From: Crocosphaera watsonii WH 8501
GTDB taxonomy: Bacteria > Cyanobacteriota > Cyanobacteriia > Cyanobacteriales > Microcystaceae
Length of the DNA stretch: 64,000 bases
Direction: 5' to 3'
Assembly (NCBI RefSeq): GCF_000167195.1
Contig: NZ_AADV02000002.1
Span: 1-64,000, forward strand
Position 1 is the stretch's first letter. Every line of letters starts with the position of its first letter. Shown piece by piece: positions 605-37,883 of this stretch. Made by a program: the position numbers and the translations under genes. The notes under the pieces were generated by a model. That model made no database searches. It was not told where the DNA came from and worked only from the letters and a program-made list of their open reading frames with translations.

Positions 605-742
605 TTGTTCTTGACCAACAACTGGGAGGTGTTTCTACCAATTATAGCGGTTTGTAGCCGACAAAGCTGATCTTTTTTGCGATCGCGAATATGGGTGTAA
701 CCTTTTAAAGAATAGGGTTTTGCTTTTATTCAGCAAACCCTA
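1..742 (-). mobile_element. 1695-bp IS, copy 1, cut by the window edge
   Basis: This is the left-end half of the element that is complete at 52014-53708 and 19450-21144. The terminal sequence TAGGGTTTGCT is seen inverted here, ending at 742. The flanking trinucleotide at 743-745 is ATT, which matches the AAT duplication of the complete copy read on the other strand. The element has landed inside an IS1380-type transposase gene, which resumes at 743. Confidence 0.9.
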
Positions 743-934
743 ATTAGAGAAAAATGGTCAGAGACTCATATCCTACTTAGGGGTGATAGTGCCTATGCCC
801 GTGAAAAAATCTTCTATTTTTGTGAAAATCAGCCTTTAGTTGATTATGTTATAGCTATGGGAACAAATGGCGTTCTTAAGTTACGAGCGGATGATGTAAT
901 TGAAAAAGCCAAACATGAATATGAAAAAAAACTA

Positions 935-2312
935 GTGCAGCTTGGCGAAAGTAATCCACCAGATTTTTACAGAAACTTTCGTGACTAGCCACGACAATGT
1001 GTTTCAATGAAACTAACGGAAGAATCTCGAAGTTGATGTCCATGATAAAAGCATTGCCAATTAACCTCTCCAACCTACAGAAAACAGTACTCCAACAAAT
1101 AGTGAGAGGGACAACAAACCCCTATCGCCTTGTTAGACGAGCCAAGCTAATCTTAGCCGCAGCATCAGGAGAGAGCAATAGTTCGATTAGTCGAAGATTA
1201 GAATTAGACCTAGTACAAGTGCGTCAGTGGCGATCGCGATGGTTTGAGGAGAGAGAAAAACTGAGTGCCGCCGAAGAACAACAGGTAACGGAGAAAGCAT
1301 TAATGGTCTTGATCAAAGGAATTTTAAGCGATCGCCCAAGACCTGGAACAACAAAATCCTTTACGGTCGAACAAGTAGTCCAGATTGTAGTGATCGCTTG
1401 TGAAGAATGTGAAAAATCAGACAGACCAGTGAGCCATTGGACACCTTCAGAGTTGGCGGATGAAGCCATAAAAAGAGGAATTGTCGAAAAGATTTCCCCC
1501 CGTAGTGTGGGGCGTTTTTAAAAAAGAAGCGACATTACAACCACATCTCGTTCGTTACTGGTTAAATGCCAAAATTGATGATCCCTTAAAATTTAAAAAG
1601 CAAGTCAAATATATCTGTGAACTTCATCAAGAAGCTAAAACTTTGTTAGAACAAGGAATTCATTTAATTAGTACAGATGAAATGACAGGGATTCAAGCTC
1701 TTGAGAGATTATTTCCGAACAAAAGAATCAAGCCTAAACAAGTAGAAAAAATCGAATTTGAATATGAAAGACACGGAACTTTAAGCTTGATTGCGAACTG
1801 GGATGTGGCAAGAGGAAAAGTTGTTAGTCCCTCTATTGGACCGACAAGAACAGAACAAGATTTTTCTGAACATATCCAGAGAACGATTAAGATTGATGAA
1901 AAAGCAGAATGGATTTTTATTGTAGATAAACTCAACACTCATAAATCGGAAAGCTTAGTCAAATTAGTAGCAGAAAGCTGTGGAATTACTATTGATTTGG
2001 GGAGAAAAGGAAAGGAGGGGATTTTGCAATCTATGGACAGCAGAGCAGATTTTTTATCAGATGAATCTCATCGAATTCGCTTTGTTTATATTCCCAAACA
2101 TACATCGTGGCTTAATCAAATTGAGTGTTGGTTTTAGATCTTAGTCAGGCGTTTACTCAAAAGAATTACTGTCCGTTCAACTGAAGAACTATCCCAAAAA
2201 ATTCTCAATTTTATTGATTACTTTAATCAACATTTTGCTAAGCCGTTCGTTTGGAAATTTAAGGGCTTTAAAGATCATAAGTGACTGGTGGATTATTTTT
2301 GCTAAGCTGCAC
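935..2312 (+). mobile_element. IS630-family element, copy A (1378 bp)
   Basis: Imperfect terminal inverted repeats begin GTGCAGCTTGGCGAAAG at 935 and end in CTAAGCTGCAC at 2312. The pairing extends to a shared TAATCCACCAG block. The TA dinucleotides at 933-934 and 2313-2314 are the duplicated target, and the original site reads CTAG. The element splits an IS1380 transposase reading frame exactly. Confidence 0.95.
1036..2284 (+). pseudogene. IS630 transposase, copy A, nonsense-disrupted
   Basis: The gene has two overlapping frames. The first (from ATG 1036) encodes an N-terminal helix-turn-helix region, including RAKLILAAASGESNSSISRRLELDLVQVRQWRSR, and ends at 1521. The second (to 2137) encodes the DDE part, with STDEMTGIQALERLFPNK, FIVDKLNTHKSESL and HTSWLNQIECWF. 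The frame junction is a T5A6 run at 1514-1524. A TCG to TAG change gives a stop at 2135-2137, about 49 codons before the end used by copies B and C. The catalytic Asn of DKLNTHKS differs from copies B and C (DQLNTHKS) by one residue, K for Q. This copy is probably inactive. Confidence 0.9.
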
Positions 2313-3119
2313 TAGCTCCAATAACTGAATTAATGGATAGTTTATTTCAGAAAAAAGAAGATTTAGAAGAAGTTAAAAAATTAGTACCAATTTCTACTTG
2401 GTATCGCTCTATTCGTTATAAAACAGAAAAGTCATGGAGTTGTCAAAGAAGAGTAGTGACAAAAGTTTGTTATGGAAGTGATGGCTTAAAAATGCGCCAT
2501 GTGGTGACATCTTTGCCCGCTTCAAAAATTCCACCCTCAAAACTTTATACAAAAAAATACTGTCCGAGAGGCGAGATGGAAAATCGGATTAAAGAACAAC
2601 AATTAGACTTGTTAGCTGATAGAACTTCAACTCAAACATTTCAAAGTAATCAACTAAGATTATGGATACATTCCTGGGCTTATGTTCTCATAAATGCTTT
2701 TCGTCAACACTGTTTAAAAAAACTTCATTGGCTAAAGCAACTGTGGGAAGAATACGTCTAAATCTTCTTAAGTTGGGAGCCAGAATAAAGATTAGTTGTA
2801 GAAGAATTATTATCGCTATAGCTAGTGCTTGTCCTTATCAAGATATTTTGTCTATTGCTAACAAAAGAATTAAAACTATTCCTAATACTGGATAAGTAGA
2901 ATAAGTTGTTTTTTAAAAAAGATATCTATCATAAGTTGTTGACTGACTGATACTTTCATTTAGTCTTATTTATCGTGGAGAAAATCAAAAGTTAATATAA
3001 TTATTCCCTCTTAAACTCAATTTTTGGATAATCAAAGTCAATTTTTTTATTCATCTATATTCAAAATTTCTATTAGTCCTAAAAATTATCATTTTTCATC
3101 TCTGGATTAGGCTTTCAAA

Positions 3120-3521
3120 TTAATTTGTGAGAAATCCGGGTACTGCACCATATTTAACTCTTAGGTGATCGATGCGAGGACGGGGAATATCGCGATAGAT
3201 GTAGTACTTCGCTTGTAAACCCAGTTCAAGGTTGGAGGGTTCGTTAATTCCCTCGGGAGTAATTTCGCCGATTAAAGCAAATGTTCCATATTCATAGCGA
3301 TAGGCTAGTTGCTTCCGATTTATGCTTGCTAGTGTTGTAACTGCTTCTGTTTCTCTAGAACGAGCTACTTGGACTAACAAACTGGGTATGGTTAAAGCCG
3401 CCAAGATACCCATAATTACAACAGTAATCATAAGTTCTAGGAGGGTAAACCCGAAAGGAATTGATCTGTTTTTTTGGCAACACTTGACTATTATTAAGCC
3501 AAAAAGCTTACTATTCTTCAT
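3120..3521 (-). pseudogene. Type IV pilin-like protein, 3' end truncated by an IS1380 terminus
   Basis: The 133-aa product has a class III prepilin signal: a basic leader, then G24|F25-TLLE29 and the hydrophobic stretch LMITVVIMGILAALTIP that forms the N-terminal pilin helix. Such proteins are cleaved and methylated by PilD and assembled into type IV pili or pseudopili at the inner membrane. The C-terminus PGFLTN followed by the stop is encoded by TACCCGGATTTCTCACAAA. That is nearly the same sequence as the terminal repeat of the MITE in hsdR, which likewise encodes PAFLTN there. So the last residues are probably IS-derived and the native C-terminus is lost. It may still be made as a shortened pseudopilin. 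Confidence 0.75.
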
Positions 3522-21364: not shown

Positions 21365-21540
21365 CCCGCATTTCTCACAAACTGATCAGTAATCAGCTAG
21401 AGGTTAGATGTGGCTTATTTTTCAAGCGATCGCTTAAAATGGCACACTGTTATTTTTTACTCGCCCCTCAAATCAAGGTTAAACTCAGACTACATAATGG
21501 TTTGAAGTTTAGCGATCGCAGAATTTGTGAGAAATGCGGG
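21365..21540. repeat. 176-bp MITE, copy 1
   Basis: The ends CCCGCATTTCTCACAAA and TTTGTGAGAAATGCGGG form 17-bp perfect inverted repeats. The interior contains two GCGATCGC sites and no gene. It is essentially identical to the 176-bp copy at 35554-35729 inside hsdR. There is no clear target duplication here (CTAAA on the left, TCGCG on the right). The same terminus, with one mismatch, is found at 3124-3140 beside an IS1380 remnant. Confidence 0.92.
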
Positions 21541-33603: not shown

Positions 33604-35056
33604 CTAAGGGGGGTTGGGGGGATCATCTAAGGCTGATTTTAACTCATTTTTTAACAATTGTTGTGTGTTGGATATTTCGTTAATTAATCCTTGATACTCT
33701 TCTAACATTGTACCTAAATCTCGATGTTTTTCCCTTTATTGGTAAGGATTCTTAATATCTAAATTATAGCCATTAGCTTTAATTTCTTCTATGGAAACAC
33801 ACCAAGCAAACTCATTTTCTTCTCGATTATTCCACCATGCCTTTTCCGCTGCGAATTCCTCAATTTTTATCGGTTTAGTTTTAGAATAAGATTTATAACC
33901 AGGGGGATAAGGATGTTCATGAAACCAGATATTTTTTGTTGATTCACCCTTGGTAAAAAAGAGTAAATTAGTCTTAATACTGGTATAAGGATTAAACACC
34001 CCATTAGGTAGCCTCACAATAGTATGTAAATTACATTCTGATAACAATTTTTCCTTAATTCTTGTCTTTACTCCTTCCCCAAATAATGTTCCCATCAGGT
34101 AACACAATACCTCCTCGTCCCCCTACTTCTAATAAGTGTATAATTAACACTAAAAATAAATCAGCAGTTTCCTTAGTTTGATAAGCTTTAGGAAACCCCC
34201 CTTCAATCCCATCTTCTTCCTTCCCTCCAAAGGGTGGATTAGTCAAAATAACCTCTACCTTATCCGAGGGTTGATAATTTCTTAAAGGATTAGCTAAAGT
34301 ATTATCACGGCGTACTTTGGGCGCATCAATTTCGTGTAACAAAAGATTAGTAATACAGAGTAAATGGGGTAAAGGTTTCTTTTCTACTCCCATAATTAAA
34401 TGACTTAATTTTTCCCTTTCTTCAACGGTTTTAACTTGCTTTCTGAGATGATTTAAAGCACAAGTTAAAAAGCCACCAGTTCCACAAGCAGGGTCAAGAA
34501 TTCTCTCTCCTAACTGTGGTTTAATCATATTTACCATAAATTGAGTTACAGCACGAGGCGTATAATATTCCCCTGCATTTCCTGCATTTTGTAAGTCCTT
34601 TAATATTTTTTCATAAATTTCCCCAAAGAGATGTTTATCTTGAGAATTATTGAAGTCAATCTCATTAATTTTATTGATAACTTGACGGATCAATGTGCCA
34701 TTTTTCATAAAATTGAATCCGTCTTCAAACGCTTCTTTTAAAATTCTTGACTTAGGATTATTGCTTGTTGACAAATCAAGATTTTTGAGACTTTTAAACA
34801 GTTTACTATTCACAAAATCTAATAAAGTTTCCCCTGTCATACCCTCATCATTAGCCGCCCAATCTCGCCATCTTAAACCCTCTGGCATAGCTGAAATATA
34901 ATCATCTTCAAATAATTCTGCTTCCATTTCTCTATCATCAAAAATCTTGAGAAATAGCATCCAAGTTAATTGACTAATACGCTGGGCATCTCCATCTACC
35001 CCCTCATCAATTCTCATAATATCTTGGATAGCTTTAACAGTAGTAGAAATGGACAT
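33604..35056 (-). pseudogene. hsdM: Type I restriction-modification methyltransferase, frameshifted and truncated
   Basis: HsdM methylates adenine in the HsdS target. The first part, from 35056, has the helical N-terminus (STTVKAIQDIMRIDEGVDGDAQRISQL), the SAM motif DPACGTGGFL, the catalytic NPPF (TNPPFGGKEEDG) and YYTPRAVTQFMV. At 34091-34093 a GGG run in GATGGGAACA shifts the frame after VLPDG; deleting one G gives the expected VLPDGTLFGEGVKTRI. The continuation runs to a TAA at 33736-33738 after NPYQ, yet the same frame then goes on REKHRDLGTMLEEYQGLINE to 33604. Two lesions make loss of function likely, unless slippage on the G run rescues the first. Confidence 0.9.
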
Positions 35057-35269: not shown

Positions 35270-35325
35270 ATATTAATTGATACAAAGGAAAAAAATCTCT
35301 AATTATTCTCATTGTTGTTCATATT

Positions 35326-35353
35326 GTAGGGGTCAACGGCTGTTAACCCCTAC
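35326..35353. repeat. 28-bp palindrome, copy 2
   Basis: GTAGGGGTCAACGGCTGTTA followed by ACCCCTAC. One arm has two changes relative to the perfect copies. It lies between the small plus-strand gene and the hsdR 3' end. Confidence 0.8.
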
Positions 35354-35368
35354 GGAAATAGGATAACA

Positions 35369-37883
35369 TTAAGAAACCCCATAAAGTTCCCTTGCTAACT
35401 CTTGAATAGCTGCTAAATATTGCTTTTTCCCCCCAAAATGTTTAATAATTTCCATCGGGGTTCCCAACCTATCAAAAGGTGCAACAGTTAACACTTTCAA
35501 ATCTTCAATGGACTCTATTCCCTCATCTGCATACTTATCTAAAAGTGCCTTAACCCGCATTTCTCACAAACTGATCAGTAATCAGCTAGAGGTTAGATGT
35601 GGCTTATTTTTCAAGCGATCGCTTAAAATGGCACACTGTTATTTTTTACTCGCCCCTCAAATCAAGGTTAAACTCAGACTACATAATGGTTTGAAGTTTA
35701 GCGATCGCAGAATTTGTGAGAAATGCGGGCTTAAGCACTTTCCTAGCCTTTTCCCCATATTTTGTGAAACAATTGCGCTTTTTCACTTCATTTGCCCTCT
35801 CAAGACGACTTAAAGGCGGTTGATCAAACGCCACATGACAAATGAGATCAAACGCATCAAACTCCTTACCAACCTCCTGCATTAACCCTTCAAAAATGAC
35901 CCCTCTCTCCTGTAAAGCATCAATAATGACCTGTTTTTTGGTAGCCTCACCCCATTGCCTCAAAAAGGCATCCATTGACCTATATTCCTTATTAACCGTC
36001 TTTTTCGTGTAATATTTCAAAGATTCGGTGATTAATCTCCCCTCCTTATCGTAATACTGCACCCTCTCCCTGATAACCGATGTTTTCACCGTCTCTTTAC
36101 CCAGATAATATTTAGTCCGTTTCTCCCTAACCACTGGTGAAGGGTTGGCCATTTGGTACGGTTTATCCTCTTCTAAGACAATGGGATCATCCCCTTTCGG
36201 TTCGTAAACTTGTACTGGATCGCCATCAAAGTTGGGGTCAGCAAATAATTCCGTGGCCTTCTTAAAATCCATGATAGTAAAGTAAGATTTACCAAACGCC
36301 TCATTAATACGGGTTCCGCGCCCAATAATCTGCTTAAACTCCGTCATAGACTTAATAGAACGGTCTAAGACAATTAATTGACAAGTTTGAGCATCTACCC
36401 CCGTCGTCATCAACTTAGAAGTGGTTACCAACACAGGATAAGGACTATCGGGCAGAATAAAATTATCTAACTCTTCTTTGCCAATTTTGTCGTCTCCTGT
36501 TATTTTTAGCACATAACGGGAATTTTGCGCCACTAAATCGCTATTTGCTACCACTAACGCCCGACGCATCCGTTCTGCATGGTCAATATCTTCGCAAAAA
36601 AGAATAGTTTTCCGAAAACGGTTCGTCCTTTTGAGAAATGCTGTGATTTTTTGGGCCACCAAAATATCCCGATTTTCGAGTACCAGGGATCTATTCATAT
36701 CCATTTGATTATAGATTCTATCCTCGATAAATTGCTGATATTTATCTATTTGTCCCGCTTTCGGTCGCCAGCCCAACAAATCCTTATCAATATCGATTCT
36801 TATCACCTTATAGGGGGCTAAAAAACCATCTTCAATTCCTTGTTTCAGGGAATAGGTGTAAAGGGGTTCGCCAAAATAGTCGATGTTAGAAATATCTTTG
36901 GTTTCCTTGGGGGTGGCCGTCAAACCGATGTGAGTAGTACTGCTAAAATAATCAAGAATTTCACGCCATGCTGAATCTTCTGCTGCGCTTCCCCGATGAC
37001 ATTCATCTACAACGACTAAATCGAAGAAATCGGGGGAAAATTGCTTATAAATGTTTTTTTCTTCCTCATTCCCTGTGACTGCTTGATATAAAGCCAAATA
37101 AACCTCATAGGACTTATCTATCTGACGCTTCTTAATTTTGGTCATGGCCTGACCAAACGGCTTAAAATCATTGGTTTTGGTCTGATCCACTAAAATATTG
37201 CGATCGGCTAAAAATAAAATCCTTTGTTTGGTGCGAGATTTCCATAAACGCCAAATAATTTGAAACGCAGTGAAGGTTTTTCCCGTTCCTGTAGCCATTA
37301 CCAATAAAATTCGCTCTTTTCCCTTGGCAATAGCTTCAACGGTGCGATTAATGGCATTTAATTGATAATAACGGGGACGTTTGCCTCGACCATCACTATA
37401 ATAGGGTTGGGTGATAATCTCGTTTTCTTCCTCCTCTATGCCCTTCCATTGGCGATAACGCTGCCATAATTCGTCAGGGGAAGGAAATTCATCTAAAGAG
37501 ATTTCTCGTTCTATCAGGGCATCATTACGGGTAAAATCGTGTTCAATGAAGCCATCCCCATTGGAACTATAAGCAAAGGGAACGTCTAAAATCCTAGCAT
37601 AGTCCATCGCTTGCTGCATTCCGGCACCCATACTGTGGTTATTGTTCTTGACTTCCATGACGGCAATGGGTAGATTAGGACGGTAGTAGAGGATATAATC
37701 AGCCCGTTTTCCTTTCCCTCGACTGGTTAGTTGGCCTCTAACTAATATTCGACCATCGGTAAAAGTGACTTCTTCTCGAATTTAGATGTTAAGATCCCAT
37801 TTATTATTTTTAACTAAGGACGGAGTGATATATTTTGTGCAAATATCCCGTTCACTGAAACTTTTTTTATTAATGTTGGTCAT
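35369..37883 (-). pseudogene. hsdR: Type I restriction endonuclease subunit, nonsense codon plus MITE insertion
   Basis: HsdR translocates and cuts DNA. Starting at ATG 37883 the frame reads MTNINKKSFSERDICTKYIT and PSLVKNNKWDLNI, then TAA (37782-37784, codon 34), and continues in frame as [20 protein letters not shown] and on through [10 protein letters not shown] (nuclease motif), [13 protein letters not shown] (Walker A), [10 protein letters not shown] (DECH box) and GRGTRINE (motif VI). Near the 3' end a 176-bp MITE (35554-35729) with 5-bp CTTAA duplications splits the gene; the last 61 codons (VKALLDKYADEGIESIEDLK to LARELYGVS) lie beyond it. A re-start at ATG 37658 could give a protein lacking the N-terminal part of the nuclease domain. 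Most likely inactive. Confidence 0.93.
35554..35729. repeat. 176-bp MITE, copy 2, inserted in hsdR
   Basis: Inverted ends CCCGCATTTCTCACAAA are flanked by CTTAA at 35549-35553 and 35730-35734, a perfect 5-bp target duplication. It is essentially identical to 21365-21540. It fuses [16 protein letters not shown] to the hsdR reading frame before a stop. The terminus matches the presumed IS1380 end at 3124-3140, so the element is probably mobilised by an IS1380-family transposase. Confidence 0.95.

Follow-up and report, generated by a model that had tools for sequence, protein, structure and literature searches.

The window, by which we mean the whole 64,000-nt stretch of DNA analysed here (G+C 38%), carries a gene for a type I restriction subunit R (hsdR; profile NF046051) that is interrupted by a 176-bp repeat (Table 1). 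The 659-aa ORF on one side of the interruption spans profile positions 68-711 and the 63-aa ORF across the element positions 711-767, the two pieces abutting in the profile. Positions 110-163 of the 163 in the EcoEI_R_C profile fall beyond the element, and where the 659-aa ORF should have this domain end it has a tail derived from the element; with the domain end lost, the insertion looks like a gene break. We infer that the products of hsdR and of the other interrupted genes are non-functional. The neighbouring hsdM (window 33736-35056, minus strand) consists of two overlapping frames that match N6_Mtase 2-190 and 186-303, and since hsdM is also split, beside an interrupted hsdR, the whole type I restriction system looks decayed, with both subunits broken.

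Table 1. Positions of the MITE copies, the IS1380 pieces and the interrupted hsdR in the window, with internally deleted IS copies from relatives
Feature	Position	Strand	Basis or remark
IS1380 piece, IS nt 975-1170	740..935	+	alignment; IS630-like frame separates it from the 3' part
3' part of IS1380 copy, IS nt 1166-1996, tip CCCGGATTTCTCACAAA on minus strand	2311..3140	+	
Second full-length MITE, identical, without target duplication	21365..21540	+	alignment
Severed C-terminal piece of hsdR, 63-aa ORF	35369..35560	-	NF046051 positions 711-767
Left CTTAA of target duplication	35549..35553	.	flank reading
MITE, 176 bp, full-length copy	35554..35729	+	sequence repeat and identity to second copy
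Left 17-bp terminal inverted repeat of MITE	35554..35570	+	17-mer search
N-terminal part of interrupted hsdR, 659-aa ORF, element-derived tail at its end	35679..37658	-	ORF and profile
34-bp right end, MITE 143-176, 91% identical to IS1380 5' end	35696..35729	-	alignment
Right 17-bp terminal inverted repeat of MITE	35713..35729	-	17-mer search
Right CTTAA of target duplication	35730..35734	.	flank reading
Deleted IS copies in relatives	L087, 958 bp; L088, 931 bp; L089, pieces IS 1-258 and 1389-1996		

The interrupting repeat has the form of a miniature inverted-repeat transposable element (MITE). The copy in hsdR opens with CCCGCATTTCTCACAAA, its other tip being the exact reverse complement of this sequence, and it is identical over the whole 176 bp to the copy at 21365-21540, whose flanks (CTAAA / TCGCG) show no target duplication. 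The initial annotation had described 17-bp inverted ends around 176 bp, a second copy at the latter position and a 5-bp duplication in hsdR; the 17-mer search and the 176-bp identity confirm the first two, and CTTAA on either side of the hsdR copy confirms the third. Within the window, the 17-mer has four exact matches and one with a single mismatch (in a search that tolerated three mismatches), at a chance expectation of 0.21, and none of 100 shuffles reached five. The match with one mismatch, at 3124-3140, which had earlier been placed beside IS1380 sequence, indeed marks the 3' end of a broken copy of IS1380. Between 740 and 3140, only nt 975-1170 and 1166-1996 of this split copy were found, and the IS630-like transposase frame lying between the two pieces (997-1521) scores 32 bits against NF033545, below the cut-off of 100. 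A pilin-like ORF (window 3120-3521, minus strand; N_methyl, PF07963) has its C-terminus, PGFLTN, at the IS1380 tip.

When the six frames of the MITE were listed, the longest comprised 58 codons, and the 176 bp hold no transposase gene. One of the six frames is stop-free through all 58 codons, and 176 + 4 = 180 would preserve a host frame; the same frame contains a stop in the 79% identical copy of a relative (G004, read by eye), so its openness here is probably due to chance. GATC sites are found at nt 20, 64, and 150 of the MITE and at nt 24 and 70 of the IS1380 5' end, four of the five inside GCGATCGC. GATC occurs close to either end of the MITE and to the 5' end of the IS, and is absent from the last 120 bases of the IS. 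That GATC methylation controls transposition would be a guess.

The MITE family and its insertion sites

In the genome surveyed, a 6.24-Mb draft in 323 contigs, a similarity search (40 scored of 363 candidates) revealed 15 full-length MITE copies, of which 11 match the query at every base and four deviate from it by one or two differences, as well as six partial matches at E 1e-8 or better. An exact scan for the 17-mer returned 35 perfect ends, all of which by our own count lie on MITE copies or fragments, one fragment matching at only 89% over 46 bp; with up to one mismatch allowed, the 17-mer occurs 97 times per strand genome-wide, and the reversed-pattern control not once.

Target duplications flank 13 of the 15 full-length copies, twelve of 4 bp and one, that in hsdR, of 5 bp. 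Of the two copies with none, the one at C322:394742 directly abuts nt 429 of an IS1380, the first 428 bp of which are gone, and because the MITE sits against IS nt 429, its missing duplication is likely due to a deletion. The locus as a whole (L185 743-2483; G000:C322, ~394742-396482) comprises the MITE and the IS1380 from nt 429, and the outer flanks carry no duplication.

Empty sites were found for three of the insertions. Where the MITE lies in an IS66 transposase gene (PF03050), the joined flanks align along their entire 300 bp with IS66 paralogues at each of 40 places scored in the same genome (148 candidates), and the site in a cytidylyltransferase gene (PF02348) is unbroken in six of the eight relatives, two having given no match. 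The hsdR flank was found at full length in two of the eight relatives, over 109 bases only in a third, and unmatched in five; in both full-length relatives the alignment crosses the site without an insert, and in G006, the relative in which the frame was checked, the site lies within 816 consecutive codons that have no stop. Together, the target duplications and the empty sites demonstrate insertion of the MITE. A further copy (L035; G000:C322:268609-268784) interrupts the gene for a NACHT-domain protein (PF05729), perhaps a defence gene. With insertions in hsdR and in the NACHT gene, both maybe involved in defence, the MITE probably contributes to gene loss.

Among the eight other genomes of the genus, three contain diverged MITE copies: a full-length one with 79% identity and two partial ones with 92% and 84% (four of nine genomes positive at E 1e-7 with the own genome included; at most 16 candidates scored per genome). 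Internally deleted IS1380 copies that retain both ends and have lost much of the transposase gene are present in relatives G004, G006, and G008 (Table 1). Since relatives hold diverged MITEs and deleted IS copies, the MITE/IS family predates this genome, in which the identical copies suggest a recent burst. None of 41 other genomes of the family has a match to the MITE at E 1e-7 (at most 16 candidates scored per genome), nor does the whole MITE match at E 1e-5 in the plasmid and phage collections. Spread on phages or plasmids was considered and rejected, the occurrence of the 16-base end pattern in 25 viral contigs being about what chance gives (an estimated, not a computed, expectation). An environmental contig labelled as a Crocinitomicaceae MAG (L080) carries an identical copy of MITE nt 1-140 (L080 1-140). 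Its stretches past the MITE have no match in the own genome and short, weak ones in three of the eight relatives, with no empty site shown, although a negative in this search carries little weight; the Crocinitomicaceae label may reflect misbinning.

IS1380 as the probable partner element

The candidate partner is an IS of about 1996 bp encoding a 494-aa transposase, which scores 410.4 bits against NF033539 (cut-off 180) and 513.9 bits against PF13701, both scores clearing their cut-offs by a wide margin. At E 1e-30 the transposase has at least 131 matches in the own genome among those listed (163 candidates, 150 scored), and by our own count 22 of the listed matches are full-length (residues 1-494) stop-free frames. 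The IS terminates in CCCGAATTTCTCACAAA at the 5' end and CCCGGATTTCTCACAAA at the 3' end. Members of the IS1380 family duplicate 4 to 5 bp of target. Among the 44 copies of the own genome for which the loci include both ends (47 rows minus three from relatives), only 10 have a 4-bp duplication and the other 34 have none. Some IS flanks are repeated beside more than one copy, the same right flank occurring in L060 and L077 and another in L062 and L139, and the copies without duplication are perhaps assembly joins within a 2-kb repeat or products of recombination between copies; the MITE, whose 176 bp can be spanned by one sequencing read, retains its duplication in 13 of 15 cases.

At both ends, MITE and IS agree in 16 of the 17 bases, with base 5 the sole difference. 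Beyond these 17 bp, one MITE end resembles the IS 5' end (34 bp at 91%), the other clearly shares the 17 bp only, and the best similarity of the core to the IS is weak (MITE 1-58, 67% identical). Judged by sequence, the MITE may have descended from an old, internally deleted IS1380; as clear sharing is limited to the 17 and 34 bp and the core is weakly similar, this descent is not proved.

MITE and IS also prefer the same target. The sequences read outward from 30 MITE ends and from 82 distinct IS ends in this genome yield the same motif, T-W-W-A-G-Y, with closely corresponding values for MITE and IS, respectively (T1 0.67/0.63, A4 0.67/0.61, G5 0.70/0.60); across the empty site the motif is the palindrome GC-TWWA-GC. 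Of all the evidence, this common preference argues most strongly, in our view, for a single kind of transposase serving both elements. The initial annotation had proposed a non-autonomous family linked to IS1380, a link that full-length IS1380 copies with different termini would have contradicted; the full-length copies have the same 17-bp end except at base 5, and the common ends and target preference support the proposal.

The element is short, has inverted ends, encodes no transposase, exists in near-identical copies flanked by duplications, and shares its ends with a resident IS. We therefore hold with high confidence that it is a type I MITE, most likely moved in trans by an IS1380-family transposase; encoding no transposase, it is not itself an IS1380. 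From the observed structure, copy number, common ends, common target preference, duplications, and empty sites we infer which transposase moves the MITE. The transposase would bind the MITE ends, the bound MITE would be cut out or copied, and it would then enter GC-TWWA-GC sites, duplicating 4 bp or, rarely, 5 bp of target. The common target motif, the empty sites, and the sister genomes with internally deleted IS copies make the MITE/IS1380 pairing well supported.

Within this reading, and not exclusive of it, the real driver might be, or have been, an IS1380 whose end is exactly CCCGC, a form now lost here that the MITE has outlived. Such a form exists in the sister genome G003, whose IS is 89% identical at the nucleotide level and has a 5' end that equals the MITE 17-mer at every base, and no full-length IS1380 seen in this genome has the CCCGC end, all 35 exact 17-mers being on MITEs or their fragments. 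Against this, the resident IS has the same target motif, the 11 identical MITEs suggest that a functional transposase was probably present not long ago, and the resident transposase has its 22 open copies among the listed matches; we consider the variant unlikely, if still worth bearing in mind.

C-terminal tails, reading frame, and comparison with known elements

Six MITE insertions were read in their host frames: those in hsdR, the NACHT gene, the cytidylyltransferase gene, the IS66 transposase gene, an OrfB-type gene, and L034. The cytidylyltransferase frame ends in PAFLTN, hsdR and the NACHT gene end in the same 16-residue tail, and the IS66 transposase in a 10-residue tail. The OrfB-type frame (L015), which has 36 codons before the MITE and did not pass the ORF rule, has the same 16-residue tail as hsdR; the MITE in L034 adjoins an IS1380 remnant, and the open frames there are short. 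On the environmental contig, a protein of more than 2,600 aa (L080 120-8000), surface-type as judged by eye, has the terminus SASPAFLTN at the MITE.

The ORF-length rule allowed 29 of the 110 IS and MITE flanks to be scored, the other 81 being unscored. The host frame enters the element in frame 0 at 17 of the 29 junctions (IS, 13/24; MITE, 4/5, where the frame of one of the five, L033, is of low complexity and may not represent a gene), which departs from a flat expectation of one third (P 0.0045). However, when the target motif was slid over 71,634 bases of long ORFs, it predicted 58.7% frame 0, and 17/29 does not differ from that value (P 0.58); the motif values used were hand-entered, rounded averages from the same insertions as those tested, reading frame having had no part in making the motif. 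The motif prefers frame 0 because codon pairs such as GCT AAN fit it. As the motif alone predicts the observed frame bias, the tails follow from target choice and selection for them is not needed, the insertions looking like gene breaks. The earlier proposal that the family adds new C-termini (PAFLTNS) to host proteins is thereby divided: PAFLTN tails do arise, but a function in adding them is not supported, the frame bias being what the motif predicts. More generally, a preference for certain targets is by itself enough to imitate selection for specific C-terminal tails.

Two stronger readings of the tails can be set beside this account. According to one, the IS1380/MITE ends are fitted to their own target: GC-TWWA-GC falls mostly at codon boundaries in host genes, the frame entered is mostly frame 0, and one end of both IS and MITE supplies a six-residue tail and a stop (P-G/A-FLTN*), an end shaped for clean protein cuts; we regard this combination as improbable. 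According to the other, the family supplies proteins with C-termini, and insertions have been kept since the PAFLTN tail is tolerated or useful. The frame-0 junctions of IS and MITE and the SASPAFLTN terminus of the giant surface-type protein on the environmental contig would fit it, but the absence of any excess of frame 0 over the motif prediction and the loss of a conserved domain end in hsdR speak against it, and we judge it very improbable. A third reading, in which selection has spread the repeat as a structured RNA or a regulatory element and no transposon is involved, deserves next to no credence. As a single strand the repeat does fold well (DNA z -5.96), and its core, stripped of the terminal repeats, also outdoes most shuffles (RNA z -2.46; 3 of 200 shuffles as good), but much of the fold is owed to the terminal repeats, the sole Rfam match at 35300-35900 (E 0.17, at 35318-35402) lies outside the MITE, no promoter or terminator match was found at 35400-35900, and the target duplications and empty sites show insertion, which refutes a full RNA explanation.

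The preferred reading, a type I MITE served by an IS1380-family transposase, can be compared with several known systems. The palindromic elements of Rickettsia, as outlined in a section of the MITE review PMC10969869, are similar in being about 150 bp long, often inside genes, and in changing the product; they differ as in-frame inserts that encode a conserved peptide, whereas here the host frame ends inside the MITE at five scored junctions. A term search of the text of the same review found no occurrence of 'IS1380', and no IS1380-derived MITE came up in searches of open-licence papers, a scope too narrow to prove that none has been published.

In the part of PMC10813416 that describes them, piggyBac elements have ends mostly starting with CCC and a 4-bp duplication, a few reading TTAG, TAAA, CTAA, or ATTA, and IS1380 serves there as an outgroup to piggyBac. 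The CCC tips and the 4-bp, W-rich duplication are a mere resemblance, the systems being set side by side by description only; piggyBac is eukaryotic with mostly TTAA targets, and the MITE/IS1380 motif, GC-TWWA-GC, is looser. With the IS1380 family itself the likeness lies in a partner transposase that matches the family model, in the CCC tips, and in the 4-bp duplications of the 10 IS copies that show one, and the difference in the MITE encoding no transposase.

The distinction between type I and type II MITEs is given in a passage of PMC3542288, which also classes the MITEs of Anabaena sp. 90 as type II, without an IS partner. Like type I bacterial MITEs, the element described here is short and multicopy, lacks a transposase gene, has perfect ends common to a resident IS, duplicates its target, and disrupts genes; it differs in that its partner is IS1380. 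As a genomic hitch-hiker it belongs to a kind already known, of which it is a clear, if ordinary, case.
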